DNA of 64,000 nt from Bacteroidales bacterium (lineage in GTDB: Bacteria; Bacteroidota; Bacteroidia; Bacteroidales; UBA932), in the NCBI GenBank assembly GCA_017447265.1, contig JAFSOA010000015.1:1-64000 (forward strand), written 5' to 3'. The translations under genes were made by a program, and so were the position numbers. The notes under the pieces are model-generated. The model was not told where the DNA came from and did no database searches. It saw only the letters and a program-made list of their open reading frames with translations. Below, piece after piece: positions 20,931 to 43,993 of the stretch (positions within the stretch are counted from its first letter, which is position 1; each line of letters opens with the position of its first letter).

Positions 20931-21023
20931 CGAGTAAATGCGTAGCTGAGCGGGTGGTGTCCGGCGTAGCGACCTTTTTTCGGGAGCGAGACGGACACCA
21001 GAGCGAAGCGGAGCATTTACTCG
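20931..21023 (-). repeat. Palindromic repeat family A, intergenic copy
   Basis: A nested palindrome between the convergent pssA and cls stop codons. Outer arms CGAGTAAATGC (20931-20941) and GCATTTACTCG (21013-21023); inner arms GGTGTCCG (20956-20963) and CGGACACC (20992-20999). The core GGGAGCGAGACGGACACCAGAG and the CTTTTTTCG loop match the copies embedded in cobD, cbiJ-cbiD, cbiG-cbiF and the ATR gene. Here it could also act as a bidirectional terminator. Confidence 0.8.
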
Positions 21024-21024
21024 T

Positions 21025-22425
21025 TTACAGCAAAGGCGAGAAAAGCCGCGCCAGCGACTCCTTGAGCTTTTCCCAGCGGGGACGCGCCATCCAGGCTTCG
21101 AGATTGATTGCGACCGACTGCGCCATGTCGCGCTCGAAGATGGCCTTCTGCTGTGCGGCGAAGGCCGGGTCGTAGCAATAAGCGTCGATTTCGAAATCGA
21201 GGGTAAAACTGCGCACGTCCAGGTTGGTGGAGCCGACCGATGCGAAACAGTCGTCGCAGACGATGGTCTTGGCGTGGAGGAAGCCTCCCTGGTAGAAATA
21301 AATCTTCACGCCGGCGGAGAGCGCTTCCTTGACATAAGACCGGGAAGCCAGGTTGGTCAACGTGCCGTCGCTGCGCTCGGGCATCATCACCCGCACGTCA
21401 AGCCCGGACAGAGCGGCATTCTTGAGGGCCAGCATCATCGTGGACGTAGGCACGAAATACGGTGTCTGCAGATACACATAGTCGCGCGCCGTGCCCAGCA
21501 GCTGGATCAGGCCCTGCATGGCGGCATGCCAGGGTCCCAGCGGATCGGTGGTCACGATCTGGACAGGCGTCTCCCCCGCCGCCTCGCAGGACGGAAAATA
21601 GCGCGTCTCGGCTAGCAGTTCGCCGGAAGAGAAGCGCCAGTCTGCCAGGAAAGAAAGCTGGAGTTCTGCCACGGCCGGTCCTTCGATGCGCAGGTGCGTA
21701 TCGCGCCACGGCCCCCAATCCAGCCCTTTGCCGTAGCGCTCGGCGATGTTCATGCCGCCCGCATAGCCCACCCGTCCGTCGACCACGACGATCTTGCGGT
21801 GGTTGCGGAAGTTCGTATCGGGTGAAATAAAGGGAAAATTGACCGCCAGGAAAGGCTTGACCTCGATGCCGGCGCCCTTGAGCTGCCGGTAGAACTTCCT
21901 GCGGAAGATATTGGCCAGGTCGTCGTACTGGACCCGGACGCGCACGCCTTCGCGGGCCTTGCGGATGAGCAGTTCCGCCATGCGGCGGCCCACTGCGTCG
22001 TTCTCGAACTTGAAGAACTGGAAATGGATGTGGTCACGGGCCTGCTCCATGTCGGCGACCAGGTCGTCGATCATGGCATCGAACTTCGTGTAGGTCCGGA
22101 GGGCATTGCCGCCCAGCGGCTCCCCCTGCCCGAGTTGCCGCTGCAGTCTGTCGAGCTTGGCGAAGGGCGCGGGCGCGACGGTTTTGTGCGGCGCCTGCGA
22201 GTCCCGCACCAGCTGCCACAGGGCTTTCCTTTCAGCGGGCGGCAGCAGGCTCTTCCGCAGCGGACGATGCCCCACCAGGAAATAGAGGATCAGCCCGATG
22301 ACCGGCAGGAAAACGATCACCACCACCCACACCAGGGTCTGGGTCGGTTGCTGGTTTTCGGCGATGATATAGATCAGCACGCCTACCAGCGCCAGCACAA
22401 GGAGGATGGAGACAAGCAGGTTCAT
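21025..22425 (-). CDS. cls: Cardiolipin synthase (phospholipase D family)
   Basis: A 466-residue inner-membrane enzyme: two N-terminal transmembrane helices followed by two PLD domains. The two HKD motifs are NHRKIVVVDGRVGYAGG and HAKTIVCDDCFASVGSTN. It joins phosphatidylglycerol (or PE) molecules to make cardiolipin. The start is 3 bases after the cobT stop, so it appears to be the last gene of the cobU-cobT transcript. Confidence 0.93.
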   Translation of the reverse strand: MNLLVSILLVLALVGVLIYIIAENQQPTQTLVWVVVIVFLPVIGLILYFLVGHRPLRKSLLPPAERKALWQLVRDSQAPHKTVAPAPFAKLDRLQRQLGQGEPLGGNALRTYTKFDAMIDDLVADMEQARDHIHFQFFKFENDAVGRRMAELLIRKAREGVRVRVQYDDLANIFRRKFYRQLKGAGIEVKPFLAVNFPFISPDTNFRNHRKIVVVDGRVGYAGGMNIAERYGKGLDWGPWRDTHLRIEGPAVAELQLSFLADWRFSSGELLAETRYFPSCEAAGETPVQIVTTDPLGPWHAAMQGLIQLLGTARDYVYLQTPYFVPTSTMMLALKNAALSGLDVRVMMPERSDGTLTNLASRSYVKEALSAGVKIYFYQGGFLHAKTIVCDDCFASVGSTNLDVRSFTLDFEIDAYCYDPAFAAQQKAIFERDMAQSVAINLEAWMARPRWEKLKESLARLFSPLL

Positions 22426-22428
22426 CGC

Positions 22429-23469
22429 TTAAAAATACAAGGTGATGGCGGCTTCACTGAACGTATCCATCTCGTTGATCATCCGGATCGCGGAATCCAG
22501 GATCGGATAGGCGCAGATGGCGCCGGTTCCCTCGCCCAGGCGCAGGCCCAGGCTCAGCAGGGGCTTGGCACCCAAGGCATCGAGAAGCTTGCGGTGGCCG
22601 GATTCGTCGCCGCAATGGCCGAACACGGCATAGTCCAGCACCGCGGGGCAGAGTTTCGATGCAGCCAGCATGCAGCTGGTCATGATGAAGCCGTCGACCA
22701 GAATGACCATCTTCCGTTCGGCCGCCTGAAGCATGGCGCCGACGGCCATCACCATCTCGAAACCGCCGAACCAGCGGATGAGGTCGCGCGGCGATCCGTC
22801 GCCCCGGTAGTTATCTTTGGCACGGGAAAGTACGTCGAACTTGTGCAGGATTCCCTTGATGTCGAGCCCACTCCCCGCGCCTACGCACTCCGAGAGCGGA
22901 ATGCCGGTGAAATAGTGCATCCACAGCGAGGATGCAGAGGTGTTTCCGATGCCCATCTCCCCGAAGCTCAGCACGTTGCTTCCTTCTTCGGCACATTGGC
23001 GGACCACCCGGGCGCCCCCGGCCAGGCACTGTTCCATCTCCGCTTCGGTCATCGCCGGGCCGTGCAGGAAATTGCTCGTGCCGCGGCGGACCTTCAGGTC
23101 GATGATGCCGCGGTCTTTCGGAAAGCTATGGTCCACCCCGGCGTCGACCACCTTGAGCGCAAAGCCGTGCTGACGGCAGAGGAAATTGACCCCGCCCGTA
23201 CCCTGCGGATGCGTGAAGTGGAGTACCTGCTGCCAGGTCACCTCCTTCGGCGCGACACTGACGCCTTCCTCCACGATGCCGTGGTCCGCTGCAAAAACGA
23301 TGTTCTGCGGATGGCGGAGCTGCGGCGTGAGGGTCTGCTGGATCAATCCGACCTGCAGCGCCAGGTCCTCCAGCATGCCGAGCGAGCCTTTGGGCTTGGT
23401 CAGCAGGTCGATCTTCGCCTGCAGGGCAGGACGAAGTTTCGGGTCCGGAGGCGTGATGGAAAAGTTCAT
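22429..23469 (-). CDS. cobT: Nicotinate-nucleotide--dimethylbenzimidazole phosphoribosyltransferase
   Basis: A 346-residue enzyme that activates the lower-ligand base as its alpha-ribotide for cobalamin assembly. Diagnostic segments: [15 protein letters not shown] near the N-terminus, [48 protein letters not shown] and LRLGEGTGA at the C-terminus, which contains the catalytic Glu. Length is normal. It lies one base downstream of cobU. Confidence 0.96.
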
Positions 23470-23470
23470 G

Positions 23471-23986
23471 TTATCCTTTGATTTTGACGGGAATGCCGCT
23501 GACCATCAGCAGCACTTCATCCGCCTGCGATGCGACATACTGGTTCATCCAGCCCTGCAGGTCGGTAAAGCGGCGCTGGAGGACATTGTCGGACGTGCCG
23601 CCCATTCCGATTTCGTTGGTGACGAAGAGGAAGGTGGCATCCTGGCCGGTGAAGCGGTCGAATTCGGCCTTGAGCGCCGCGAGCGAGGCGTCCACGTCGC
23701 TCTGGCTGTCGAAGAAGAAATTGGTGCACCAGAGCGTGAGGCAGTCCACGACGACGACGCGGCCTGCCAGGTCAACATGACGGCTCAGGTACTTTTCTTC
23801 CTCGAGGTTGGTCCACTGGGGCCCGCGGCGTTCCTGATGGCGGCGCACCCGTTCCCGGAACTCTTCGTCCCAGATGCGGGCCGTGGCCAGATAGACCGGA
23901 GAATCTGACAGCGACAACGCCAACTGCTCGGCGTAGCTGCTTTTCCCCGAACGGGAGCCACCGGTAATCAAAATGACGCGCTTCAT
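23471..23986 (-). CDS. cobU: Adenosylcobinamide kinase / adenosylcobinamide-phosphate guanylyltransferase
   Basis: A 171-residue bifunctional P-loop enzyme converting adenosylcobinamide to its GDP derivative. Walker [10 protein letters not shown], the conserved [10 protein letters not shown] segment, [10 protein letters not shown] and [10 protein letters not shown] are all present. I start it at the ATG at 23986 ([10 protein letters not shown]). A TATCTTTG box at 23993-24000 is only 6 bases upstream, so the mRNA should be leaderless. It is divergent from cobS across a 42-base promoter region. Confidence 0.95.
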
Positions 23987-23992
23987 TGCATA

Positions 23993-24020
23993 CAAAGATA
24001 GCGAATAATCACTAAATTTG
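23993..24020. promoter_or_regulatory. Back-to-back -7 boxes for cobU (minus) and cobS (plus)
   Basis: Minus-strand TATCTTTG at 23993-24000 and plus-strand TAAATTTG at 24013-24020. They are 6 and 8 bases from their respective start codons, so both divergent transcripts are predicted to have almost no leader. Confidence 0.6.
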
Positions 24021-24028
24021 TAACCGAT

Positions 24029-24799
24029 ATGCTCATCTTACTGGCCACCTTGATCTTTTTCACACGGCTGCCTTTCTGGCGGCTGATCGACGTGCCCGCC
24101 GAGGATTTCAAGCGCGTCGTGCCGCGCTGGCCCCTCGTGGGCTGGCTCTCGGGCGGCCTGATGGCCCTTACCCTCTGGCTCAGCAGCCACATCTTCCCCC
24201 TGACCGTCGCCTGGATCCTGGCGCTGCTGGTCCGGATCGTGCTCACCGGCTGCCTGCACGAAGACGGCCTGGCCGATTTCATCGACGGCTTCGGTGGCGG
24301 CACGTCCCGCGAGAAGACCCTGGCCATCATGAAGGACTCGCATATCGGCACCTTCGGCGTCATCGGCCTGATCATCTATGTTGCGCTGATGCTGACGATG
24401 CCGTCCACCATCTCCCGCGACACGCTCTGCATCCTGCTCGTCTGCTGCGACTGCTGGGCCAAGTGCTGCGCCGCCCAGCTCATCAATTTCCTCCCCTACG
24501 CGCGCAGCGAGGAAGAGGCCAAGAACAAGACGGTCTATGCGCGGATGACGCTGCCCGAGTTGCTGCTCTGCTTCTTCGGCGGCCTGGCGCCGAGTTTCAT
24601 CTGCGTTTTTGCGCTGGGCTGGCTGCCCCGGCAGTTCCTCCTGCTGATGATCGTCCCGATGCTGCTCATGTGGCTGCTCCGCCTGGTGATGAAGCGCAAG
24701 ATCCAAGGCTACACCGGCGACTGCTGCGGCGCCACCTTCCTTCTCTGCGAACTCTCGCTCTACCTGGCCTTCCTGGCCGCTTATCCCCACTGGTGCTGA
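24029..24799 (+). CDS. cobS: Adenosylcobinamide-GDP ribazoletransferase (cobalamin synthase)
   Basis: A 256-residue inner-membrane enzyme joining adenosylcobinamide-GDP and alpha-ribazole. Family features: FFTRLPFWR near the N-terminus, the acidic DGLADFIDGFGGG motif, the REKTLAIMKDSHIGTFGVIGL segment and GDCCGAT near the C-terminus; about 6-7 hydrophobic segments. The gene is followed after 5 bases by cobC. Confidence 0.96.
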   Translation: MLILLATLIFFTRLPFWRLIDVPAEDFKRVVPRWPLVGWLSGGLMALTLWLSSHIFPLTVAWILALLVRIVLTGCLHEDGLADFIDGFGGGTSREKTLAIMKDSHIGTFGVIGLIIYVALMLTMPSTISRDTLCILLVCCDCWAKCCAAQLINFLPYARSEEEAKNKTVYARMTLPELLLCFFGGLAPSFICVFALGWLPRQFLLLMIVPMLLMWLLRLVMKRKIQGYTGDCCGATFLLCELSLYLAFLAAYPHWC

Positions 24800-24804
24800 C
24801 AAAA

Positions 24805-25335
24805 ATGGAAGTCATCCTGATCCGCCATACCACGCCCGATGTGCCGACAGGCACATGCTACGGGCAGAGCGACGTGCCGTTGAAAGAGACCTTCGAGGAG
24901 GAAGCCGCCGTCGCGAAGGCCGCGCTGGACGCCTGCGGCCCCGTCGACTACGCCTACACCAGCCCCCTGTCGCGCTGCACGCGGCTGGCCGCCTATTGCG
25001 GCTATGCCGACGCCCAGCGCGACGCGCGCCTGATGGAAATCAATTTCGGCGAATGGGAGATGAAAGTCTTCGACGACATCATCGACCCGCATCTCCAGGC
25101 GTGGTTTTCCGACCACATCCACACGCAGGTCACCGGCGGCGAATCGTTCATGCAACAGTGTGAGCGCGTGAGCCGTTTCCTCGACGAACTGCGGCAGCAG
25201 GCCTGGCGGCGCGTGGTCATCTTCGCGCACGGCGGCGTGCTGGTCGCCGCCCAGGTCTATGCCGGCCTGGTCACGCCCGAAGAGGCCTTCTCCTCCCTCC
25301 CGCCCTTCGGCGGCCTCATCCGCATCAGCCTCTAG
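24805..25335 (+). CDS. cobC: Histidine phosphatase, probable alpha-ribazole phosphatase
   Basis: A 176-residue protein of the histidine phosphatase (phosphoglycerate mutase) superfamily: the phospho-acceptor RHTTPD motif at the N-terminus, SPLSRC, FGEWE and the second catalytic histidine in FAHGGVL. Position immediately behind cobS supports the alpha-ribazole-5'-phosphate phosphatase role in lower-ligand assembly. The first in-frame methionine fitting the family is at 24805. Confidence 0.88.
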   Translation: MEVILIRHTTPDVPTGTCYGQSDVPLKETFEEEAAVAKAALDACGPVDYAYTSPLSRCTRLAAYCGYADAQRDARLMEINFGEWEMKVFDDIIDPHLQAWFSDHIHTQVTGGESFMQQCERVSRFLDELRQQAWRRVVIFAHGGVLVAAQVYAGLVTPEEAFSSLPPFGGLIRISL

Positions 25336-25359
25336 GCCTCTTGCTCCCGCCTTTTCCCG

Positions 25360-27645: not shown

Positions 27646-27729
27646 GTTTTGATTGCTTGATTGATAATAAGATGATAGTGCGCCGCCCCAAACGTTGGTC
27701 TGGAGTGGAAAAAAGAAAAATGCAGAGGA

Positions 27730-28101
27730 TCAATCAAGCACAGGAGGAGCGCGGAGAGAAGGGTGAAGCCATTCGGCGACGGTGACCGCAGAAGCGGGCA
27801 AAACTGCCATGACCGCTTCCAGCGGGCAGAAGGGCTCCAGTTCGAAGACTTCGAAGGCTTCCTCCGTATAAGCCGCATGATTGACGATGTTCAGCAACAG
27901 GAACTGGGCGGCCGTATGGCCTCCGGCCGAGTGGTCGCTCCGGTGGGCTTTTCCGCTGATATGGGAATGCAGCACCACCGTACCATGCACCCGGTGACTG
28001 TGCAGGAACATCGAGGAATTGACATAGCCGAAAAGAAAGACGAAGATGCAGAGCATCATCATCCCGCTCCTGAAGTATCGGTTATGCAGAATCCCTTTCA
28101 T
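27730..28101 (-). CDS. Small His-rich membrane-anchored or exported protein upstream of a TonB receptor
   Basis: A 123-residue protein with one N-terminal hydrophobic helix (about residues 12-32) and a histidine-rich stretch right after it (HSHRVHG..HSHISGKAHRSDHS..GGH, nine His in about 35 residues). The rest is unremarkable and contains one cysteine. I do not recognise a named family. The TonB receptor follows on the same strand after 84 bases. The His cluster suggests metal binding (inference). A TATCTTTG box at 28110-28117 lies 8 bases before the ATG. Confidence 0.6.
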   Translation of the reverse strand: MKGILHNRYFRSGMMMLCIFVFLFGYVNSSMFLHSHRVHGTVVLHSHISGKAHRSDHSAGGHTAAQFLLLNIVNHAAYTEEAFEVFELEPFCPLEAVMAVLPASAVTVAEWLHPSLRAPPVLD

Positions 28102-28109
28102 AGCCGGGA

Positions 28110-28117
28110 CAAAGATA
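28110..28117 (-). promoter_or_regulatory. -7 promoter box TATCTTTG before the His-rich small protein
   Basis: Perfect TAnnTTTG match on the minus strand with 8 bases to the start codon; probably drives the small protein and the TonB receptor. Confidence 0.55.
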
Positions 28118-28182: not shown

Positions 28183-30054
28183 TCAGCAAGGCAATGATTC
28201 GAAAACATTGCCGTCTTCGTCGAGCAGCAGAATGGTGAGCGAAGCGGCGAGCGCGTTTTCGGCGAGCGAGCATTTTTCTGCGAGTGAGACGGAAACCGGA
28301 GCCGCGGAGCGAACCGGCATGGGATAGACCGGGGCGCAGGCAGCGTAGCAGCGGTCGAGGATGGCGGAGAAGAAGCGGCGGGCGTCCGCATCGCCGAGAC
28401 CCTTCCAGAGTTCACGCGCCAGCGTCAGGCGGTCGATGGCTTCGGCGGCGGCCGGCGAGCAGCCCGCTTCGGCGGCGACTCCTTTCAGAAATTCCTTGTT
28501 CATCACCACGCTCCGGCTGTGCGTGTCGAGATGACCTTCGGCCAGCTTGACCGCCTTGCCGAGCATGATGCCCATCACCACCTTCGGCAGCCGGAGGTCG
28601 GCGGCGATCTTCAGGGTTTCACCGATGAAATTGCCGTAATGAACGAAGGCCTGCGGCGGCAGATCCGGGAAGCGCGCCTTGAGAAAGGCCTCGCTCTTCG
28701 CCCCCGAATTGATGACCAGCATAGGTGAACCGACAGCCACGGCCACTTCGACTTCGCGCCGGATGGCCTCGACGAAAGCCTCATTCGAGAAAGGCCGGAC
28801 GATGCCCGAGGTGCCGATGATGGAAATGCCGTCGACGACGCCCAGCCTGGGATTGAAGGTATGCTGCGCCAGCTCGCGGCCGCCGGGCACGGAGATCGTC
28901 ACGTCCAGGCCGCCGTCGTACAGCGCCGACAGGTTCTGCTCCATCATCTGCCGCGGTACGCGGTTGATGGCCGGTCCGCCGACCGGAATGCCGAGTCCGG
29001 GCAGGGTCACGCGGCCGACGCCTTCTCCCTGCAGGAAATGAATCCCCGGTTCGTCGCTGAAAGCGACGGTGGCCACGATCTGCCGGCCGTTCGTCACATC
29101 CGGGTCGTCACCGGCATCCTTGACGACGATGGCCGTTGCAGAATCTCCTTTGCGGGGATTCAGCAATTCGACAGGAAGCGAAAGGGTTTCGCCATCCGGA
29201 AACAAAATATCGACCGTCTCCCCCACTTCGTGGCCCAACAAGGCCAGCAACGCGGCCTTTGCGGCAGCCGTGGCGCAGGCGCCCGTGGTGAAGCCGCTGC
29301 GCAGCGGGAAGAAGCCCGGCACCAGCCGCTCGATGGCCTTCCGCAGGCCATGCTCGCCCGTGACCACTGCGAAGCCCGCGGGCAGCGCCGGCCGGCGGAC
29401 GGCATACAGCGGAATGCCGGCGGCCTGCGCCGCCTCCAACTTCTGCGGGAAGCCGCCCGATTCGCCACTTTCTTTCGTCAGGATGGCTTGCGGCCGCAGG
29501 CGCGCGATGAGCGCCGCCTCGTCATCCTCTTCGTAATAGACCAGCCTGTCAGCCGGAAAACCCTGCTGCGCCGCCTTTTCCAGCGACTCATCGCGGTGCA
29601 GGATGCGGAACCAGCAGTCATGCCGTTCCCAATACGGCCGCAACTTTGCGATGGTCTGCACGCCCGTGAGCGCCAGCAGGCGCGTGATGCCGTCGGCTTC
29701 CAGCCGCCGGATGGCCTCTGTATAATCATCACACCAGTGAATACCCGGATCCTCCTCCGGATACCTACGTTCCACGCGCACGACCGGCAGATCGAGCGAC
29801 TCGGCGACGGCCGCCACGGTCCGGTGCAGCTCCGACGCGAACGGATGCGCCGCATCGACCAGCAGCCGGATGTCCTGCGCCTGGCAGAACGCCGCCATCG
29901 CAGCCTCGTCCAGCGCGCCGGTGATGTGCGTGCCGTGCTTGCAGTCTATCTGCTGCAGCTCGCCGCGCGTGGAGTACCAGTACGGCGATCCCGCCGCATC
30001 GGCCAACCGGACTGCGAGCCGGCCCTCCGTCGTACCGCCGAGTATCAGGATCAC
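28183..30054 (-). CDS. cbiD: Fused precorrin-6A reductase (CbiJ/CobK) and cobalt-precorrin-5B C1-methyltransferase (CbiD)
   Basis: A 623-residue bifunctional enzyme. Residues 1-~245 are CbiJ/CobK (LILGGTTEGRLAVRLADAAG at the N-terminus, DAAHPFA, VRVERRYP). From ~250 the CbiD domain begins with RSGFTTGACATAAAKAALLALLG. It reduces the corrin macrocycle and methylates C1. The start is GTG at 30054, overlapping the stop of cbiG-cbiF as GTGA. Near the C-terminus (about residues 575-610) an in-frame copy of repeat family A encodes SAAPVSVSLAEKCSLAENA, which is not part of known CbiD sequences. Confidence 0.92.
   Translation of the reverse strand: MILILGGTTEGRLAVRLADAAGSPYWYSTRGELQQIDCKHGTHITGALDEAAMAAFCQAQDIRLLVDAAHPFASELHRTVAAVAESLDLPVVRVERRYPEEDPGIHWCDDYTEAIRRLEADGITRLLALTGVQTIAKLRPYWERHDCWFRILHRDESLEKAAQQGFPADRLVYYEEDDEAALIARLRPQAILTKESGESGGFPQKLEAAQAAGIPLYAVRRPALPAGFAVVTGEHGLRKAIERLVPGFFPLRSGFTTGACATAAAKAALLALLGHEVGETVDILFPDGETLSLPVELLNPRKGDSATAIVVKDAGDDPDVTNGRQIVATVAFSDEPGIHFLQGEGVGRVTLPGLGIPVGGPAINRVPRQMMEQNLSALYDGGLDVTISVPGGRELAQHTFNPRLGVVDGISIIGTSGIVRPFSNEAFVEAIRREVEVAVAVGSPMLVINSGAKSEAFLKARFPDLPPQAFVHYGNFIGETLKIAADLRLPKVVMGIMLGKAVKLAEGHLDTHSRSVVMNKEFLKGVAAEAGCSPAAAEAIDRLTLARELWKGLGDADARRFFSAILDRCYAACAPVYPMPVRSAAPVSVSLAEKCSLAENALAASLTILLLDEDGNVFESLPC
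28235..28315 (-). repeat. Palindromic repeat family A, copy embedded in the cbiJ-cbiD gene
   Basis: On the gene strand it reads ..CCGGTTTCCGTCTCACTCGC then AGAAAAATGCTCGCTCGCC. It aligns with the cobD copy in the same orientation and the same reading frame (peptides SVSLAEKCSLA here, SVSLAKKCSLA in cobD). The inner arms are partly decayed compared with other copies. Confidence 0.8.
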
Positions 30055-31961
30055 TTTCGGAAGAGGTGTTTGAATTCGTGGGCATAAAGCCGCGAGAGGC
30101 CCTCCCGGTTGCCGATGGCTTCACCGACAACCAGCAAGGTCGTGAGTGTCAGATTGTTGTCCCGGACGATTTTCGCCAGATCTTTCAGCGCTCCGCGATA
30201 GATGCGCTCCTCTTTCCAGGTAAGCTTGTAGCAGGCGGCAACCGGCGTCTCGGGCGGATAGGCCTGCAGAAGCTCCGCCTGCACCTCTTCCACGATGGCG
30301 GCACTCAGATAGATGCACATCGTGCTCTGCGACTGCGCGAGCTTGTGGAGTTGCTCCCGCTCGGGCATGGGGGTACGACCCTCCCCGCGCGTGAGGATGA
30401 TGGTCTGCACCTTCTCCGGAATCGTGAACTGCGAACGGAGCGCCGCCGCAGCGGCCTGGAAGGCCGAGATACCGGGCGTGATGTGGTAGTGCATGCCGTA
30501 GCGGTCGAAAAAGGCCATCTGCTCCTGGATAGCGCCGTAGATGCAGGGGTCGCCGGTATGAAGCCGAACCACGAGCAAACCCTTGTCGTAGAACGCCTTC
30601 ATCAGGGCGAACTGTTCTTCCAGGTCCATCGACGCGGAGCTGCGCACCGTACAGCCGGGCTTGGCATAGTGCGTCAGTTCGACCGGCACGAGACTGCCGG
30701 CGTAGAGGATGAGGTCGGCCTGCTCGAGGAAACGCTTGCCGCGCACCGATACGAGCTCCGGATCGCCCGGACCCGCCCCGACGATTTCGATATGGCCGGT
30801 GCGAAGCGAAGCGGCGTCGCGGGCCAGGGCGAAAGTGAAATCATTGCCCTCCGTAAGACGTCCCTTCTGCTTCTCCATCAGCAGCGGCCCGCCCTGCGCG
30901 CTCTCCAGCGCCGCCGCCTCGGCCACACCGGCGCTGCCGGTGGCTTCCAGGGCCTTTTCGGAAGGATTCGGCACGTCGACGGCGGCCAGGGTCCCGGCCG
31001 GATAGACGGCGGCGTGCGCCTGCGGCCAGCGGGCCAGCAGGGCCTGCAGCAGGGGCTCGTCTTTCTTCAGCTCGATGGTGCCGACCGTCGCAACGGACAG
31101 CGGTGACCACCCCGCTTCGCGGAGCTGCGCCTCGATATACGCGGGGATGCCGGCAGGGTCGCATTGCTTCCGGCAGCCGAAGCCCAGATGGAGTACGGGC
31201 GGGTGGAAAGCCAGGACGGGCTTGTCGCCGGGAATCTCCGGCAGGCAGCGGGGCGTGACGGCGATCAGCAGATCAAAATCCTTGGGATCCAGGTCTTCGC
31301 ACCGGTAGCAGAGCTGCACGTGCTCGGGTTTGGTGCGTTCCAGAAAGGCGGTGCCGGCGTCGCGGACCTCCAGGAGGAGGGCGGTCGGCTTCTTTTCGAC
31401 AAAGGCGAAGATGGCGCGGTTCATCTGGGATGGCGTGGCTTCCGTCTGCCAGCCGTAGCTTCGTCCGAGGGTGTCAAGGGCCCAGAGGCCTTCGTTGTCG
31501 CTCTGCGTCGTCACAATGGCCTGGGCGCCGATGTGGCCGGCAATTTGGCGGGCCAGGTCGTTGGCGCCGCCGATGTGGCCGGAGACGACGGGGATGACGT
31601 AGCGGCCGGTGCTGTCGATGCAGACGACGGCGGGATCGTCATATTTGTTTTTCAGGGCCGGGGCGATGCTGCGCGTGCAGATGCCGAGGGCGCCGATGAA
31701 GATGACGGCGTCGAGTTCCTGCCAGTTGTCTTTCAAGAACTTGCTATAACTTCCGATCTCTTTCTTCGTATAAATGACAACGCTCTGCGGCGCTGGCATA
31801 TCGCGTTCCCTCTCGCTCGCAGAAAAATGCCCGCGCTCCGTTTCGCTCTGATATTTCCGCTCGCTCGCAGAAAAATGCTCGCGCGAGGAAATATCACCCG
31901 CTATACTCCGCGCTAAGGGTAATGACGATTCAGAAACTACAATGATGACTGTCTTGCTCAT
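30051..31961 (-). CDS. cbiG: Fused cobalt-precorrin-5A hydrolase (CbiG) and cobalt-precorrin-4 C11-methyltransferase (CbiF/CobM)
   Basis: A 636-residue bifunctional enzyme. CbiG occupies ~1-330 (IFIGALGICTRSIAP, VVSGHIGGANDLARQIA, LHLGFGCRKQC); CbiF occupies ~385-636 (IEIVGAGPGDPELVSVRGKR, ILYAGSLVP, RLHTGDPCIYGAI, GISAFQAAAAAL). CbiF methylates C11 and CbiG opens the ring lactone. Between residues ~22 and ~55 an in-frame repeat family A copy encodes SSREHFSASERKYQSETER and a second EHF-like half. The linker at ~335-385 is unusually long. ATGA overlap with the CbiE-CbiT gene upstream. Confidence 0.92.
   Translation of the reverse strand: MSKTVIIVVSESSLPLARSIAGDISSREHFSASERKYQSETERGHFSASERERDMPAPQSVVIYTKKEIGSYSKFLKDNWQELDAVIFIGALGICTRSIAPALKNKYDDPAVVCIDSTGRYVIPVVSGHIGGANDLARQIAGHIGAQAIVTTQSDNEGLWALDTLGRSYGWQTEATPSQMNRAIFAFVEKKPTALLLEVRDAGTAFLERTKPEHVQLCYRCEDLDPKDFDLLIAVTPRCLPEIPGDKPVLAFHPPVLHLGFGCRKQCDPAGIPAYIEAQLREAGWSPLSVATVGTIELKKDEPLLQALLARWPQAHAAVYPAGTLAAVDVPNPSEKALEATGSAGVAEAAALESAQGGPLLMEKQKGRLTEGNDFTFALARDAASLRTGHIEIVGAGPGDPELVSVRGKRFLEQADLILYAGSLVPVELTHYAKPGCTVRSSASMDLEEQFALMKAFYDKGLLVVRLHTGDPCIYGAIQEQMAFFDRYGMHYHITPGISAFQAAAAALRSQFTIPEKVQTIILTRGEGRTPMPEREQLHKLAQSQSTMCIYLSAAIVEEVQAELLQAYPPETPVAACYKLTWKEERIYRGALKDLAKIVRDNNLTLTTLLVVGEAIGNREGLSRLYAHEFKHLFRK
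31811..31916 (+). repeat. Palindromic repeat family A, copy (one and a half units) embedded in the cbiG-cbiF gene
   Basis: The core CTCGCTCGCAGAAAAATG occurs twice (from 31811 and from 31859). Inner arms GATATTTCC (31850-31858) and GGAAATATC (31887-31895) pair perfectly. It is inverted relative to the gene, so the protein reads EHFSASER and SETERGHFSASER, the opposite-strand frame of the family. Confidence 0.8.
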
Positions 31962-34547: not shown

Positions 34548-34554
34548 CATGTTA

Positions 34555-34562: not shown

Positions 34563-34575
34563 CAAAAATATTCCC

Positions 34576-34583
34576 TATATTTG
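34576..34583 (+). promoter_or_regulatory. -7 promoter box TATATTTG for the riboswitch-led uptake operon
   Basis: Perfect TAnnTTTG match; the riboswitch fold begins about 5 bases downstream, where transcription should start. Confidence 0.6.
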
Positions 34584-34587
34584 CGCC

Positions 34588-34790
34588 CGATTCAGGTAAT
34601 CGGCCTGTGCCGATGCAAGGGAACCCGGTGCGAAACCGGGGCTGTACCTGCAGCTGTGATCCCCGATAAGGGTCTGCTTCCTAAAACGCCACTGGGCGCT
34701 CCGCCATCCCCCGTCTGCCGGGCAGGAACGGAGCCGGAGCCCGGGAAGGCGGAGCAGACCGGGGAAAGCCAGAAGACCTGCCCGAATCGG
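34588..34790 (+). ncRNA. Cobalamin riboswitch
   Basis: Shows the class core GGGAACCCGGTGCGAAACC followed by GGGGCTGTACCTGC, a GCCACTGGG segment (34688-34696) and the B12 box AGCCAGAAGACCTGCC (34768-34783). The ends pair (CCGATTCAGG with CCCGAATCGG). A variable GC-rich hairpin lies between 34696 and 34760. It precedes the TonB receptor by about 40 bases and should shut off uptake when cobalamin is abundant. Confidence 0.95.
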
Positions 34791-34829
34791 AAACACGCAC
34801 GCGTTCAGGAGCAAGCGGGCTGCGGAAAC

Positions 34830-38115: not shown

Positions 38116-38121
38116 TCTTCC

Positions 38122-39627
38122 ATGTTCAAGAACTTTACTGGCTTTAATCTGGTAGAATCGATCTACCAGATGGGCGTAGAGCTGAAGCAGCAGGCCCGGC
38201 GGATCAAACGGAGAACCGCCAGCCTGCTGGTGGTCGCGGCTGTCACCATCACGCTTTTCCTGCTGCCGACCAGCTCCTTCGGCCTCGAAGGCCTGACCGT
38301 CGTGCAGCAGCGCATCATCGCCGTCTTCGCCTTCGCCACCCTGATGTGGATCCTGGAGCCGGTGCCGTCCTGGGCCACGTCCATCGGCATCATGACGATG
38401 CTGCTGTTCTTCGCCTCCGACTCCGGCATCAAGTGGATTTGCGATCCCGCGCAGGTGGGTACGCTGCTGAGCTACAAAGGCATCATGGCGTGCTTCGCCG
38501 ATCCGGTGATCATGCTGTTCCTGGGCGGTTTCGTACTGGCCATCGCGGCCACCAAGACCGGCCTGGACGTACATCTGGCCAAGATCCTGCTCAAGCCGTT
38601 CGGCAACAAGAGCGAGATGGTGCTGCTGGGCTTCCTGCTCATCACCGGCCTGTTCTCGATGTTCATCAGCAACACGGCCACTGCGGCCATGATGCTCACC
38701 TTCCTGGCGCCGGTCTTCAAACAGCTGCCCGCCAATGGCAAGGGCCGTATCGCCATGGCCCTCAGCATTCCGGTCGCCGCCAACCTGGGCGGCATCGGCA
38801 CGCCGATCGGCACGCCGCCGAACACCATCGCCCTGAAATATCTCAACGACCCCGAAGGCCTGAACCTGAACATCGGCTTCGGCCAGTGGATGCTCATGAT
38901 GGTGCCGCTGGTCATCCTGCTGCTCTTCATCAGCTGGCTTCTCATCAAGAAGATCTTCCCCTTCACCCAGAAGACCGTCGACCTGGTCATCGAAGGGGAG
39001 ATGAAGCGCGACCGGAAGACCACCATCGTCATCGTGACCTTCATCGTAACCGTGCTGCTCTGGCTGCTCGACTCGGTAACCGGCATCAACACCTATACGG
39101 TGGCCCTGCTGCCGATGGCCGTCTTCTGCGCAACCGGCGTCATCGACCGGCGCGACCTCGAGGAGATCAACTGGTCGGTCATCTGGATGGTGGCCGGCGG
39201 CTTCGCGCTGGGTTATGCGATGAATGTCTCGGGTCTTGCTTCGCTGGTGGTCAAGAGCATTCCGTTCGATTCGTTCTCGCCGCTGCTGATCCTGATTCTG
39301 TCGGGCCTGCTCTGCTACGCGCTGTCGAACTTCATCTCGAACTCGGCGACGGCAGCCCTGCTCATGCCGATCCTCGCGGTCGTCTGTACGGCCATGGGCG
39401 ACAAGCTCGCTTCCATCGGCGGCACGGCCATCGTGCTGATCGGCGTGGCCATCGCTGCCAGCAGCGCCATGGTCCTGCCCATCTCGACGCCGCCGAACGC
39501 CCTGGCCTTCGCCACGAACCTGGTGCAACAGAAAGACATGGCCAAGATCGGCCTGATCGTCGGTTTCATCAGTATGGTTCTGGGATATGTCTTCCTCTAT
39601 GGATTCGGTACCCTCCGCTTGATATAG
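38122..39627 (+). CDS. SLC13/DASS family sodium:anion symporter
   Basis: A 501-residue inner-membrane carrier with about 12 helices and the two DASS signatures: SNTATAAMMLTFLAPVF with GGIGTPIGTPPNTIA in the first half and SNSATAALLMPILAV with SSAMVLPISTPPNALAF in the second. The family imports di- and tricarboxylates or sulfate with Na+. It sits 6 bases behind the lipoprotein CbiK under the same B12 riboswitch, an unusual partner. It could carry a carboxylate-rich substrate, but none is proven. Confidence 0.87.
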   Translation: MFKNFTGFNLVESIYQMGVELKQQARRIKRRTASLLVVAAVTITLFLLPTSSFGLEGLTVVQQRIIAVFAFATLMWILEPVPSWATSIGIMTMLLFFASDSGIKWICDPAQVGTLLSYKGIMACFADPVIMLFLGGFVLAIAATKTGLDVHLAKILLKPFGNKSEMVLLGFLLITGLFSMFISNTATAAMMLTFLAPVFKQLPANGKGRIAMALSIPVAANLGGIGTPIGTPPNTIALKYLNDPEGLNLNIGFGQWMLMMVPLVILLLFISWLLIKKIFPFTQKTVDLVIEGEMKRDRKTTIVIVTFIVTVLLWLLDSVTGINTYTVALLPMAVFCATGVIDRRDLEEINWSVIWMVAGGFALGYAMNVSGLASLVVKSIPFDSFSPLLILILSGLLCYALSNFISNSATAALLMPILAVVCTAMGDKLASIGGTAIVLIGVAIAASSAMVLPISTPPNALAFATNLVQQKDMAKIGLIVGFISMVLGYVFLYGFGTLRLI

Positions 39628-39660
39628 AGGCTTTTTCCTTTTTTCATTATAGTGTGTACC

Positions 39661-39689
39661 GGCCCCGCAAGACTGCCATTTGCGGGGCC
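39661..39689 (+). terminator. Strong hairpin between the SLC13 gene and the second CbiK gene
   Basis: Perfect 10-base arms GGCCCCGCAA (39661-39670) and TTGCGGGGCC (39680-39689) with a 9-base loop. There is no U-run after it, so it may be a weak terminator or a processing site separating the two CbiK genes. Confidence 0.5.
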
Positions 39690-39714
39690 ATTTACGCGAC
39701 AATAAACCGTAAAA

Positions 39715-40617
39715 ATGCTTGCTTTACAATCTCTGAAGAAATACTTGCCGATCCTGTTCCTGCTGTTCGTTTCGCTCAGTCTCCAGGCACAAGACAAGAC
39801 CGCCCTGCTGCTGGTGCATTTCGGCACCACCTACGACGACACCCGGTCCAGGACCATCGACGCCATCAACGCCAAAGCGGCGGAAGCCTTTCCGGAGCTG
39901 ACGCTGCGGGAGGCATACACCTCGCGCATCGTGATCCGCAGGCTCAAAGCACGCGGCCTCGACAAGCATACCCCGCTCGAGGCGCTGCTCTCCCTGCGTG
40001 CCGAAGGCTTCACCCGCGTCATCGTCCAGACGACCACCCTGCTGGAAGGCGCCGAAATGGAATCGCTGCGCCGCGACGCAGCCAGCGTGGCGGGCTTCTT
40101 CACGGACATCCGCGTCGGCGCTCCCCTGCTCTATGACGTAGCAGACTGCCAGCGGGTGGTGGACATCCTCTCCGCACGCCATGCAGACAAAGCGGACGCG
40201 AAGCAGAAAGCCCACGTCGTATTGGTCGGTCACGGCACCTATACCCCCGCCACGGCCACCTACAGCCAGTTAGACTACATGCTGCGGGCACAGGGCCATC
40301 CCCTCTTCCATGTCGCCACACTCGAAGGTTATCCGACCTTTGAGACGCTGCTCGCGCAGCTCAAGGCCGCCAGGGCCCGCCGCATCACGCTCGTGCCACT
40401 GCTCTTCGTGGCCGGCGACCACGCCGCCAACGACATCGCCGTCGATTGGAGACAAGCGCTGGAAGCCGAAGGCCTGCAGGTGGGCTGCTGTCTGGAAGGC
40501 CTTGGCGAAATCCCTGAAATCCAGGACATCTACATCGAACACATCCACCGCTCCCTGCAACAGGCCCCTGTGGACATTATGAAGAAGAAAGAGGCGTATG
40601 CCGCTGGCAAGGAATAG
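39715..40617 (+). CDS. cbiK: Second CbiK-family cobaltochelatase with a signal peptide
   Basis: A 300-residue CbiK family protein with an N-terminal signal sequence (KKYLPILFLLFVSLSLQAQ) but no lipobox cysteine, hence probably periplasmic. Motifs: LLVHFGTTYDDTRSRTIDAI, VGHGTYTPATATYSQLDYML (first metal-site His) and LVPLLFVAGDHAANDIAVDW (second). After signal removal the length is close to classical CbiK. No cytosolic CbiK or CbiX was seen in the window, so cobalt insertion for the adjacent biosynthetic genes may happen outside the cytoplasm or elsewhere in the genome. Confidence 0.88.
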   Translation: MLALQSLKKYLPILFLLFVSLSLQAQDKTALLLVHFGTTYDDTRSRTIDAINAKAAEAFPELTLREAYTSRIVIRRLKARGLDKHTPLEALLSLRAEGFTRVIVQTTTLLEGAEMESLRRDAASVAGFFTDIRVGAPLLYDVADCQRVVDILSARHADKADAKQKAHVVLVGHGTYTPATATYSQLDYMLRAQGHPLFHVATLEGYPTFETLLAQLKAARARRITLVPLLFVAGDHAANDIAVDWRQALEAEGLQVGCCLEGLGEIPEIQDIYIEHIHRSLQQAPVDIMKKKEAYAAGKE

Positions 40618-40628
40618 CGTTTTTTTCT

Positions 40629-40636
40629 TAACTTTG
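40629..40636 (+). promoter_or_regulatory. -7 promoter box TAACTTTG before the ATR-cbiP-cobD-cbiB operon
   Basis: TAnnTTTG match with only 5 bases to the ATG at 40642; leaderless transcript predicted. Confidence 0.6.
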
Positions 40637-40641
40637 CATTT

Positions 40642-41313
40642 ATGGCCCATCGCATCTATACACGAACCGGCGACCAGGGGATGACAGGCATCCACGGCGG
40701 CACCCGCGTCCCGAAAGACGATCCCCGCATCGAAGCCAATGGGAATCTCGATGAACTGAACTGCCAGATCGGCGTCATTCGTTCTATGCTGAGCGAGCGT
40801 TGCGGCGGGTGTTTTTCGGAGCCGCGAGCTTTATTCAGCGGGCGAGAGGAAAAACAGAGCCGAAAAGCGAGCGAGACGGATACCGGAGCCACGGAGCGAG
40901 CGCTATTTGACGAAATCCTGCATACGATACAGAAGAACCTGATGACCGTCATGAGCCAGGTGGCGACACCGTCGGCCGAACGCGACAAGAATCCGAACGA
41001 ACTGCCGCAGAACCTCGTCACCGACTGCGAAGCCATGATGGATGCCCTCACCGCCGAAGCCGGTCCCAGCCGCCACTTCATTCTCCCCGGCGGCACTCCC
41101 CTCGCCGCCCAACTACAGATGGCCCGGGCCATCTGCCGCCGCGCCGAACGCCGGCTCTGGGCCCTGCACCGCATCGACCCCCTCCCCGAAGTAATCCTGC
41201 AATACATCAACCGCCTCTCCGATCTGCTTTTCGTGATGGCCCGCCACGAACTGGCCCGCCAGGACTGGCCCGAAGACCGTTGGCAAGCCTTCGCCTACAA
41301 GAACCAGCTATGA
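40642..41313 (+). CDS. Corrinoid ATP:cob(I)alamin adenosyltransferase, PduO type, with repeat-derived insertion
   Basis: A 223-residue enzyme adding the 5'-deoxyadenosyl group to cobalt. PduO-type motifs: IYTRTGDQGMTGIHGGTRVPKDD at the N-terminus, VATPS, FILPGGTPLAAQLQMARAICRRAERRLW and YINRLSDLLFVMARHE. Residues ~52-88 (from SERCGGCFSEP to ATERA) are an in-frame copy of repeat family A placed between two helices where homologues have a short loop, so activity is probably retained. First gene of an operon with cbiP, cobD and cbiB linked by ATGA overlaps. Confidence 0.92.
   Translation: MAHRIYTRTGDQGMTGIHGGTRVPKDDPRIEANGNLDELNCQIGVIRSMLSERCGGCFSEPRALFSGREEKQSRKASETDTGATERALFDEILHTIQKNLMTVMSQVATPSAERDKNPNELPQNLVTDCEAMMDALTAEAGPSRHFILPGGTPLAAQLQMARAICRRAERRLWALHRIDPLPEVILQYINRLSDLLFVMARHELARQDWPEDRWQAFAYKNQL
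40790..40902 (-). repeat. Palindromic repeat family A, copy embedded in the adenosyltransferase gene
   Basis: Contains GCGAGCGAGACGGATACCGG and AGCCACGGAGCGAGCG, matching the reverse complement of the cbiJ-cbiD copy. The protein reads ASETDTGATER, the same opposite-strand frame as in cbiG-cbiF. The left half is diverged. Confidence 0.75.
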
Positions 41314-42806
41314 AGGAACGACTCCATCCCGTCATGCTGGCCGGAACCGGCAGCGACGTCGGCAAAAGCATCCTGGCCACAGCCCTCTGCCGCATCTTCC
41401 GGCAGGACGGATACAACCCGGCCCCGTTCAAGGCCCAGAATATGGCCCTCAATTCCTTCGCCACGCCGGAAGGCCTGGAGATCGGCCGGGCCCAAGCCGT
41501 GCAGGCCGAAGCCGCCGGCATCCCCTGCCATACCGACATGAATCCGCTGCTGCTCAAGCCCCAGAGCGACCATAGCTCGCAGGTCGTGTTGAACGGCAGG
41601 CCCATCGGCAACCGCGATGCCTACGACTATTTCCGGAAGGAAGGCCGGGCCGAACTGCGCGAGGCCGTGTACGCCGCCTACGACCGGCTGGCCACCCGCT
41701 TCAATCCCATCGTCATGGAGGGAGCCGGCAGCCTCGCCGAGATCAACCTGCGCGACAGCGACCTGGTCAACGTGCCGATGGCCATGCATGCCGGCGCCGA
41801 CATCCTCCTGGTGGGCGATATCGACCGCGGCGGCATATTCGCCAGCGTCTACGGCTCCATCATGCTGCTGCGCCCCGAAGAGCGGAAGTACGTCAAAGGC
41901 ATCCTGATCAACAAGTTCCGGGGTGACCTGCGGCTTTTCGAAGAAGGACGCCGGATGCTGGAAGATCTCTGCGGCATCCCCGTGCTGGGCGTCGTCCCCT
42001 ATTACCACGACATCCATATCGAAGAAGAAGACTCCGTGGCGCTGGCCGCCAAGAGCGCCGCGGCGCAGCGGGGCAAGATCAACGTGGCCGTGGTGCTGCT
42101 GCGCCACATCAGCAACTTCACGGACTTCAACGCATTGGAGCGCGATCCGCGCGTCCATCTGTTCTACAGCAACAACGTCGATGAAATCGCCAAGGCCGAC
42201 ATCGTCATCCTGCCGGGCAGCAAAAGCACCCTCGACGACCTCTACGAGCTCCGCCGCAACGGCGCAGCGCAGGCCATCCTGCGTGCCCGCCGCGAAGGGG
42301 CCTCGGTGCTGGGCATCTGCGGCGGATATCAGATGATGGGCGTCCAGATCCGCGATCCGCAGCATGTGGAAGGCGACATCGAAGCCATGCCCGGGCTCGG
42401 GCTGCTGCCCATGATCACCGAGATGCTGGGAGAGAAAGTGACCCGCCAGGTGCGTTTCACGCCCGCTGACGGTACGGGCGATCCGATGGAAGGCTATGAG
42501 ATCCATATGGGCCGGACCCTGCCGGCAGAGGGCGGTCCGTTCAGGCCGCTGAACCGGCTCGAAGACGGACAGGAAGACGGCTGCCTCGCAGATGAAAAAT
42601 GCATGGGTACCTACATCCACGGCATCCTCGACAACCCGGCCTTCATCGACCGGCTGCTGGCACCGCACAGCGCCAGCATTACGGAGGCTGCGGAAGCGTT
42701 CGACTACCATGCCTTCAAGGAAGAACAGTACGACCGCCTGGCCGCACACGTACGGAAGTATGTGGATATGCCCCGGCTTTACGATATCTTACAAGGAAAG
42801 CGATGA
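41310..42806 (+). CDS. cbiP: Cobyric acid synthase
   Basis: A 498-residue glutamine-dependent amidase (CbiP/CobQ) that amidates four side chains of adenosylcobyrinic acid a,c-diamide. The N-terminal dethiobiotin-synthetase-like domain has GTGSDVGKSILATALCRIF and FKAQNMALNSF; the C-terminal class I glutamine amidotransferase domain has the nucleophile Cys in GICGGYQMMG and a C-terminal YIHGILDN. The start at 41310 overlaps the previous stop as ATGA. Confidence 0.96.
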   Translation: MKERLHPVMLAGTGSDVGKSILATALCRIFRQDGYNPAPFKAQNMALNSFATPEGLEIGRAQAVQAEAAGIPCHTDMNPLLLKPQSDHSSQVVLNGRPIGNRDAYDYFRKEGRAELREAVYAAYDRLATRFNPIVMEGAGSLAEINLRDSDLVNVPMAMHAGADILLVGDIDRGGIFASVYGSIMLLRPEERKYVKGILINKFRGDLRLFEEGRRMLEDLCGIPVLGVVPYYHDIHIEEEDSVALAAKSAAAQRGKINVAVVLLRHISNFTDFNALERDPRVHLFYSNNVDEIAKADIVILPGSKSTLDDLYELRRNGAAQAILRARREGASVLGICGGYQMMGVQIRDPQHVEGDIEAMPGLGLLPMITEMLGEKVTRQVRFTPADGTGDPMEGYEIHMGRTLPAEGGPFRPLNRLEDGQEDGCLADEKCMGTYIHGILDNPAFIDRLLAPHSASITEAAEAFDYHAFKEEQYDRLAAHVRKYVDMPRLYDILQGKR

Positions 42807-43993
42807 TCAACGGACACGGTGACGATGCCTTCCGGTTCGACCGGCCGATAACGGCGAACTTCAGTTCCAACGTCTACAGCCATGTAGACCTGGAGCCGTT
42901 GAAAGAGCATCTGCGCCAGCGGCTCGACCTTGTCAGCCATTATCCCGAGCCGGAGCCCTACACCCTCGAGCGGGCCCTGGCCGGACGACTGGGCATCCCG
43001 GCTTCATCCGTCTGCGTTACGAACGGGGCCACCGAGGCTATCTATCTGACCGCCCACGCGTTTCAGGACCGTCATTCGACGATCCTTGCGCCGACCTTCA
43101 GCGAATATGCGGATGCGTGCCGCTTATACGCTCACTCCGCGCCTCTGGTATCCGTCTCGCTCGCGAAAAAATGCTCGCTCGCCGGATACCACCCGGCGCT
43201 ACGTTCGCTTACTATAAGCGGAGTGCGGGCTCTGCGTTGGCCTGGTGGAGATTTTGCGTCTTGCACGTTGAGGCCCTCCGAGACCGCAAGACCAAAATCG
43301 CCTCAGGAAGAGCCCGCCAAGCGGAGCGAGATGCCGGATCCAGTCCGGCATGATGTATTGTGGCTTTGTAATCCGAATAATCCGACCGGAGGTGTTATTC
43401 CGAAGGAACAGTTGGTGAAGGCCATCGAAGAGAATCCGAAGACCGTCTTCGTCATCGACCAGTCTTACGGATTCTTTACGAAAGCAAAACTCCTCACGGC
43501 CGCCGAAGCTGTGCGGTATCCGAATGTCCTCCAGCTGCACTCGATGACCAAGCGCTACGCCATGCCCGGCTTGCGCCTCGGCTACATCACCGCGAATCCG
43601 GCCCTCCTGGAAAAGATACGCGCCGTCCGTATGCCCTGGAGCGTCAACGCCCTGGCCGTCGAGGCGGGCATTTACCTGTGTGAACACCCCGAGACCGGCC
43701 CCATCGACCTGGAGGCCCTGCTCGCTGAGACACAACGACTTCACGAGGCACTCAACGCCATCCCCGGCCTCACGGCCGAACCGACGCAGACCCATTTCTT
43801 CCTCTGCCACCTGCAGAAAGGACGCGCCGCCGACCTTAAGCAATGGCTGGCTGAAAAGCAAGGCATCCTCATCCGCGACGCATCCAATTTCGAAGGCCTG
43901 GATGCCGGACATTTCCGCATCGCCACCCAGACGCCCGAAGAAAACGACCTGCTGGCAGCGGCTGTCCAACACTATCTGAAGGATCACCGATGA
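42803..43993 (+). CDS. cobD: L-threonine-O-3-phosphate decarboxylase-like PLP enzyme (CobD) with a repeat-derived insert
   Basis: A 396-residue fold-type I PLP enzyme supplying aminopropanol phosphate for the corrin side chain. Typical features: ANFSSNVY at the N-terminus, VTNGATEAIYL, CNPNNPTGG, VIDQSYGFF, and the PLP lysine in SMTKRYAMPGLRLGY. Homologues are about 330-360 residues. Here ~75 residues (about 112-185) between ADACRLYA and VLWLCNPNNPTG are encoded by a repeat family A copy followed directly by a family B copy. The frame is open and catalytic residues are intact. Flanked by ATGA overlaps. Confidence 0.9.
   Translation: MINGHGDDAFRFDRPITANFSSNVYSHVDLEPLKEHLRQRLDLVSHYPEPEPYTLERALAGRLGIPASSVCVTNGATEAIYLTAHAFQDRHSTILAPTFSEYADACRLYAHSAPLVSVSLAKKCSLAGYHPALRSLTISGVRALRWPGGDFASCTLRPSETARPKSPQEEPAKRSEMPDPVRHDVLWLCNPNNPTGGVIPKEQLVKAIEENPKTVFVIDQSYGFFTKAKLLTAAEAVRYPNVLQLHSMTKRYAMPGLRLGYITANPALLEKIRAVRMPWSVNALAVEAGIYLCEHPETGPIDLEALLAETQRLHEALNAIPGLTAEPTQTHFFLCHLQKGRAADLKQWLAEKQGILIRDASNFEGLDAGHFRIATQTPEENDLLAAAVQHYLKDHR
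43129..43224 (+). repeat. Palindromic repeat family A, copy embedded in cobD
   Basis: Outer arms ACTCCGC (43134-43140) and GCGGAGT (43218-43224); inner arms GGTATCCG (43147-43154) and CGGATACC (43183-43190); loop with CTCGCGAAAAAATGCTCGC. It encodes SAPLVSVSLAKKCSLAGYH in the same frame as the cbiJ-cbiD copy. It abuts a family B copy. Confidence 0.85.
43225..43353 (+). repeat. Structured dispersed repeat family B, copy embedded in cobD
   Basis: Closely matches the reverse complement of 4606-4735 over about 125 bases, including GGCCTGGTGGAGATTTTGCG and AAGACCAAAATCGCCTCAGG. Outer stem GCGGGCTC (43225-43232) with GAGCCCGC (43310-43317); terminal hairpin ATGCCGGA..TCCGGCAT. It is read in frame in cobD. 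Confidence 0.85.

Follow-up and report, generated by a model that had tools for sequence, protein, structure and literature searches.

The window analysed here is a stretch of 64,000 nucleotides (contig JAFSOA010000015.1 of assembly GCA_017447265.1, positions 1 to 64,000 of the forward strand) from a gut-type Bacteroidales bacterium, whose assembly comprises 2.13 Mb in 19 contigs at 78.7% completeness and is called G000 in the genome comparisons below. It contains five copies of a palindromic repeat of about 93 bp, named F1, of which four lie in frame within cobalamin genes. The hosts are a cbiJ-cbiD fusion (28183-30054, minus strand; Pfam CbiJ 1.4e-49 and CbiD 7.3e-91), with an antisense copy near the C-terminus at 28230-28322 (plus strand; 72.1 bits with the covariance model R1 described below); a cbiG-cbiF fusion (30051-31961, minus; Pfam CbiG_N, CbiG_mid, CbiG_C and TP_methylase), with a sense copy in its N-terminal part at 31823-31918 (minus; 67.2 bits, also placed by orthologue alignment); a cobalamin adenosyltransferase gene (ATR; 40642-41313, plus; Pfam Cob_adeno_trans 1e-55), with a sense copy at 40788-40880 (plus; 82.4 bits); and the open reading frame (ORF) of cobD, encoding threonine-phosphate decarboxylase (42599-43993, plus; Pfam Aminotran_1_2, phmmer match to 3fkd 1.4e-75), with an antisense copy at 43122-43213 (minus; 83.8 bits, supported by orthologues and a low-confidence model loop). 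The fifth copy (20933-21026, plus; 80.7 bits, E = 2.3e-17, DNA folding z = -5.35) sits between the convergent ORFs 20216-20920 (plus) and 21025-22425 (minus), with a perfect inverted repeat of 11 bp, CGAGTAAATGC/GCATTTACTCG, on its two sides. The original prediction, made from the letters of this DNA, that one element family occupies all five places in both orientations is borne out: R1, although trained partly on them, matches all five, and the host genes hold two sense (cbiG-cbiF, ATR) and two antisense copies (cbiJ-cbiD, cobD).

In three of these genes the insert is more than the single element first described. The full copy in cbiG-cbiF is adjoined by a partial second F1 (31806-31840, minus; direct-repeat family D8, inverted repeat I8), and ATR holds the right half of another (40867-40902, plus; inverted repeat I5 with 43129-43164). 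The cobD insert is a composite in which F1 is adjoined by a palindrome of a second type, F2 (GGCCTGGTGGAG type; 43225-43319, plus; 95 nt, 92% complementary to 4640-4734), and which ends in a short palindrome of a third type, F3 (GATGCCGGATCCAGTCCGGCATGA; 43328-43353, plus; 26 nt, 92% complementary to 4607-4632). A homologous pair of F3 and F2 copies occupies 4607-4734 on the minus strand (4607-4632 and 4640-4734; inverted repeats I1 and I21).

F1 copies were collected from the genome with a short core pattern and then aligned, and R1 (model length 93) was built from 23 of these rows. The 15-base core pattern, with up to two mismatches, gave 57 genome matches versus 15 for the reversed pattern, and R1 gave 47 matches of 89-96 nt at E <= 1.6e-6, one further match at E 0.6 being left uncounted. 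The training rows include all five window copies, and 24 of the 47 matches lie outside training. Two of the 47 are identical repeats, on contig C9, of copies on C8, which leaves 45 distinct copies; the genome-wide search thus extends the predicted family by 40 distinct members beyond the five of the window. The copies concerned, C8:91239 and C8:92549, recur at C9:24389 and C9:25699 with identical 25-base flanks, and C8:91239-92640 and C9:24389-25790 are a duplicated or overlapping contig stretch.

The ends of F1 are constant (GCGNAGCnGnGCGGGTGG ... CCAGAGC ... GCGNAGC) around a self-complementary core, the left end reading GCGNAGC followed by GCGGGTGG and the right end CCAGAGC followed by a GCGNAGC-like terminus. 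A pattern of the ends only found 33 genome matches (two of them not F1-like) versus 2 for its reversal. The ends also persist, around a quite different but still mostly self-pairing core, in at least six low-scoring copies, such as C17:114277 and C3:87455. The element at C3:57092 (L378, about 3470-3615, minus) combines F1 ends with a stem of its own (TATTTTGCTCCAGAACC/GGTTCTGGAGCAAATG), carries a longer payload and was missed by R1. Since such end-sharing elements with other cores exist, 47 is a lower bound.

Across the genome, 17 of the 45 distinct copies are in frame within 16 Pfam-supported ORFs that run across the copy. Besides the four cobalamin genes, these encode DnaX, an HU-CCDC81 protein, a helix-hairpin-helix protein, an HI0933-like flavoprotein, two ABC-F ATPases, an FGGY kinase (presumably rhamnulokinase), a methyltransferase that we take to be PrmC-like, an RsmF-type methyltransferase, HydF, an RluA-type pseudouridine synthase, whose gene holds two adjacent copies, and a SpoU methylase. 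Seven more ORFs spanning copies match no Pfam family and are not counted as genes. Ten of the in-gene copies are sense and seven antisense, using five of the six orientation-frame combinations. With 12 non-cobalamin genes also carrying F1, pathway-specific insertion is rejected, and the earlier impression that in-gene copies favour one pathway was an effect of the window. The Pfam domains of HydF and SpoU are matched in two stretches; in the DnaX, HU, helix-hairpin-helix, PrmC-like and RluA-type proteins the match covers just one side of the insert, which makes these five hosts, for which also no empty orthologue was read, less secure.

Comparison with orthologues establishes frame-preserving inserts, as predicted for the four cobalamin genes, in six cases: ATR, cbiJ-cbiD, cbiG-cbiF, cobD, the FGGY kinase and the HI0933-like gene. 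The cbiJ-cbiD insert of G000 lies between VYP and ASLTILLLDE, where G007 and G010 are empty; F1 is absent from all seven aligned orthologues, and G006 has another palindrome at the site (by eye). Relatives without the insert exist within the genus for cbiG-cbiF, and for ATR they are G010, G015, G017 and G003. CobD and ATR were also compared with their nearest solved homologues, the other hosts within the genus only. The linker at the insert has 15 residues in 3fkd against 68 in CobD here, and 10 residues in 1rty against 40 in ATR, so the inserted peptides are not conserved segments of these homologues. The cobD gene of G023 (87-88% identity) retains only apparent end fragments of F1 and F2, as after an internal deletion. 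In an AlphaFold2 model of CobD (mean predicted local distance difference test score, pLDDT, 82.7), residues 121-132 and 135-180, that is, 58 of the 68 inserted, score below 50; the modelled loop is of low confidence, as disordered loops are. In ATR the peptide drifts, compensating shifts inside the insert separating the G000 version from that of G023.

We also noticed that the protein loops occupied by F1 hold unrelated palindromes in other species. Here, F1 in relatives was assigned with R1, and F2 (GGCCTGGTGGAG hairpin) and F3 (CGTC-type short palindrome) by eye. The HI0933-like loop was read in 16 species: F1 is sense in G000, G023, G001 and G007 and antisense in G053, the insert is F2-like in G014, G017, G051 and G022, F3-like in G052 and G042, and ambiguous in G043, G054 and G010, and G003 and G055 have none. 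Aligned with each other, the F1 (G000), F2 (G017) and F3 (G052) inserts of this loop score like shuffled sequence, with 211, 393 and 500 of 500 shuffles attaining the observed value; for two of its F1 inserts, 0 of 500 attain it. The FGGY-kinase gene is present in 22 of 40 genomes and its loop was readable at 12 of 15 loci, with F1 antisense in G000, G052, G023 and G055 and sense in G001, F3-like inserts in G014, G046 and G022, empty sites in G042, G003 and G012, and an ambiguous one in G017. The cobD loop holds F1 in antisense (G000, G007), in sense (G022, G010) or as a weak match (G006, E 0.03), and F2-like palindromes in G006, G003, G022 and G000. The cbiG-cbiF loop carries F1 sense in G000 and antisense in G007, and the ATR loop carries F1 in G000, G023, G007 and G022. 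For dnaX, cbiG-cbiF and the FGGY kinase, the orientation of F1 is opposite between species with both host flanks matching.

The reading frames of the element are unusually open. For the core from GGGTGG to CCAGAGC, which has both anchors exact in 67 of 105 copies, 49 of the 67 are free of stops in all six frames versus 12.5 expected from dinucleotide shuffles, and in the own genome the figures are 19 of 29 versus 4.5. The longer element has on average 4.4 open frames of six (3.7 expected). Copies within genes (mean 4.47) and other copies (4.36) hardly differ, so that openness is a property of F1 and not of filtering inside genes.

The predicted pairing of the arms holds for the family and for part of the window copies. 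Pairing is specific to each copy: in the 45-copy test the own-arm pairing sum is 352, against a permuted mean of 273.8, and is reached by none of 10,000 permutations; with RNA parameters, 37 of 45 copies fold at z < -2 (mean near -4.3). Within the window the arms pair in the copies at 20933, 43122 and 31823, and the cbiJ-cbiD and ATR copies fold poorly (RNA-parameter z -1.4 and 0.0); with DNA parameters, only two of the five window copies are clearly better than shuffles. Between orthologous F1 pairs of at least 0.85 identity (n = 11), there are 19 single and 3 double arm changes (0.5 doubles expected); at 0.70-0.85 identity (n = 20) there are 59 single and 73 double changes, 63 of the latter keeping a Watson-Crick pair (20.5 doubles expected), and at 0.55-0.70 (n = 8) there are 28 single and 33 double, 26 of them pair-keeping (12.2 doubles expected). 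These counts reuse sequences, overlap and are not independent, and some of the distant pairs may be separate insertions. As read from the change counts, pairing would be needed for spread and would decay slowly later.

Pairing extends into the host DNA at some sites. With wider windows, which took 99 of 105 copies (six were skipped for missing anchors or flank), 12 copies have strongly paired flanks (score >= 9) versus 1.1 expected, three of the 12 being orthologues of one site; an earlier test with narrow windows on 45 copies was not significant (1105 of 10,000 permutations). In the HI0933-like gene, host codons to the left of F1 are mirrored on the right with species-specific letters (CTGCAACGGG/CCCGTTGCAG and ATGAAACGGA/TCCGTTTCAT). 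The mirrored flanks may stem from template switching across the hairpin. A wider proposal, that F1 is a constant-end module bracketing exchangeable palindromic cores and growing outward by copying host DNA across the hairpin, thereby rewriting host codons, is conceivable and we hold it only tentatively.

F1 appears to be confined to one genus. It was found in 19 of 40 genomes of the genus, own genome included. In a sample of the family, 5 of 119 genomes were positive, all from the window's genus, with none in the 24 other of the 25 genera sampled under strict filters. An order-wide search, also strictly filtered and scoring 14 candidates per genome, gave 1 positive of 295, the own genome. The order- and family-wide filters recovered 14 and 35 of the 47 own-genome copies, respectively, and weak or rare copies elsewhere may thus be missed.

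Some further features of the window and of F2 were recorded in passing. The homology of CobD to 3fkd starts at residue 69 (about 42803), and the ORF is open for about 67 codons upstream (42599-42800), a stretch that is also open in G006, G010 and G003 and is probably an overlap with the upstream gene in another frame. A cobalamin riboswitch aptamer (RF00174) lies at 34577-34799 (plus; E 7e-23) in the cobalamin gene region. At 17972-20220, two neighbouring stretches are 74-78% identical and look like a tandem gene duplication; one encodes YYMVKNSWGE, presumably a C1-peptidase-like motif. By eye, a long imperfect inverted repeat at 15363-15471 (GCTGCAACGGACAC...GTGTCCGTTGCGGC) is like a palindrome upstream of a gene for a transposase of the RAYT type (REP-associated tyrosine transposase, REP being repetitive extragenic palindrome) at G000:C11:34937, and an inverted pair at 60945-61032 with GTAACGTCCC is like hairpins beside a RAYT gene in G053:C68. 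Two F2 palindromes elsewhere in the genome (G000:C15:140296-140364 and C17:30887-30955) have matching ends and slightly different cores; they are the only matches of an F2 pattern that missed both F2 copies of the window, and the pattern thus gives no measure of F2 abundance.

Taken together, we consider F1 likely to be a small mobile palindrome that is non-autonomous and forms a counterpart, specific to one genus, of the Rickettsia palindromic elements (RPEs), and the most likely explanation of its positions is that of a non-autonomous mobile hairpin tolerated in surface loops. F1 would move in the form of a folded single strand, which an enzyme of the host or of a mobile element would recognise in trans, and its arms would be complementary because pairing is needed for mobility. 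Copies breaking essential genes would be lost and those in frame in surface loops would persist, presumably because the core lacks stops in most frames and the peptide stays disordered; resident copies would then decay slowly. Tolerance by loops, which the original prediction had offered as an explanation, is supported. Several observations weigh against this explanation. The remaining 28 of the 45 copies lie outside Pfam-supported ORFs and, judged by codon usage in the flanks of 44 of the 45 copies (the other lies at a contig edge), may or may not interrupt genes. No constant target-site duplication was seen by eye in the insert/empty comparisons of the six genes, where divergence blurs the boundaries. 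Near-identical copies differ mostly on one arm, so that pairing is not tightly kept after insertion. Finally, no transposase or autonomous partner was found for F1 in a genome that is 78.7% complete and with right ends not searched alone; the sole unmatched left end, at C3:57092, belongs to the palindrome with another core and not to a transposon sharing F1 ends.

The local RAYT (TnpA-REP) transposases are candidates for such an enzyme, acting as in a REPIN-like system without flanking REPs. Y1_Tnp (RAYT-like) genes are found in 27 of 40 genomes of the genus (25 above the family cut-off), and they co-occur with F1, being present in 18 of 19 F1-positive versus 9 of 21 F1-negative genomes (Fisher p 0.0006, uncorrected for phylogeny). 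GCGNAGC, an unusually stable DNA mini-hairpin, is strand-specific in F1: 57 of 105 copies carry it at both ends and 76 at one end at least, against 3 with the reverse form; the pattern fits recognition of a folded single strand and does not prove it. However, none of the four RAYT genes of the own genome is flanked by F1, a further point against the preferred explanation; by eye, they adjoin palindromes of other kinds, and the flanks thus give no support to F1 as the REP of these genes. Among 28 RAYT loci searched, F1 matches occur at two, one about 1.9 kb from the gene and one weak (E 0.005) at the end of the stretch, and G017 has 8 F1 copies and no Y1_Tnp match. We regard mobilisation by these transposases as unlikely. 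Hairpins with a selected function, as RNA regulators or functional peptide inserts, are a much less probable explanation still. The stable folds predicted with RNA parameters would suit them, but Rfam gives no match over the window F1 copies (20800-43400) up to E 1, the cobalamin riboswitch being the only strong hit in that stretch, both orientations and several frames are in use, the peptide drifts in ATR, and the modelled CobD loop resembles disordered loops in its low confidence.

Another way to account for the shared loops is one ancient palindrome per loop, whose later divergence, in-place inversion or replacement through local conversion would stand in for repeated hits. The loops are often occupied in many species, the cobD gene of G023 looks like the deletion scar of a G000-like insert, and the 63 pair-keeping doubles at 0.70-0.85 identity exceed the 20.5 expected for doubles of any kind; in-place inversion of an old copy would also yield opposite orientations. 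Against it, alignments between the F1, F2 and F3 inserts of one loop do not exceed those of shuffles, orientation varies at the same loop in dnaX, cbiG-cbiF, the FGGY kinase, the HI0933-like gene and cobD, and occupied and empty sites are both found among the genomes of the genus (compared with no species tree behind them). We find this account rather improbable. An artefact of metagenome assembly or binning might be suspected in a 19-contig, 78.7% complete assembly with identical C8 and C9 copies, but is next to impossible, since further assemblies of the genus, several of them from different projects, carry the orthologous inserts too.

The best-known in-frame coding palindromes are those of Rickettsia and Wolbachia, for which, in the accessible text of PMC3767692, the choice between insertion hot spots and divergence is left open. 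Here, vacant and occupied sites, sites used in both orientations and up to three unrelated families per loop are all available, in ordinary enzymes, from a single Bacteroidales genus that has ruminant-gut relatives, and with that mix the question becomes testable by phylogeny. Short mobile DNA of this kind may be a route by which disordered segments are added to conserved proteins, and the F1 sequence offers a starting point in the search for the enzyme behind their movement.

Among known systems, the REPs with a CGTC head are small palindromes without a dedicated transposase, some inside ORFs and also reported from Bacteroidetes, with an 8-9 bp stem, a 4-5 nt loop and a CCA tail, as far as the available part of PMC3733652 describes them. 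F1, judged by its consensus and fold, lacks the CGTC head and has neither a single stem of 8-9 bp nor a 4-5 nt loop; F3 (CGTCATGCCGG...CCGGCATCTC), which adjoins F1 in several copies, resembles them by eye. GTAG REPs and REPINs share with F1 the hairpin DNA and the presence of RAYT-like genes in the genome, but their GTAG end is conserved, F1 having GTAG just in those cases in which T takes the N position of GCGNAGC, and their repeats flank the RAYT gene, whereas F1 flanks 0 of 4 here. The coding palindromes of Nematomorpha mitochondria are perfect inverted repeats in translated genes, thought to be actively maintained, and template switching is discussed there as one origin of the identical arms (PMC6649704, accessible sections); F1 copies differ in being imperfect and members of a dispersed sequence family. 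Within the literature on palindromic or MITE-like (miniature inverted-repeat transposable element) in-frame elements that was open to our search, from which most subscription papers fall outside, and as far as the texts were accessible, no paper was recognised as describing F1; in-frame bacterial MITE fusions are reviewed in the accessible part of PMC2229807. The closest likeness is to RPEs (RPE-1 to RPE-7) and the Wolbachia palindromic elements (WPEs), which, like F1, are short palindromes found between genes and in frame within ORFs, and the genome- and genus-wide searches agree with this parallel, drawn by the original prediction. According to the portion of PMC3767692 available, RPEs measure 100-150 bp and leave intact the frame of the ORFs that hold them, a given gene region may hold different repeat groups in different species, and for the sites shared by RPE-4, RPE-6 and RPE-7 both hot spots and divergence from one insertion were left open, the latter being the single-insertion alternative weighed above; many of the RPE and WPE host genes encode conserved proteins (PMC2229807, in part). 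F1 is shorter than RPEs, at about 93 bp (89-96 nt matches), and lives in Bacteroidales and not in Rickettsia or Wolbachia, the likeness being one of description; unlike RPEs, it has constant ends with exchangeable cores and both orientations at one site. F1 falls within the full definition of none of the families tested, yet it behaves like RPEs.

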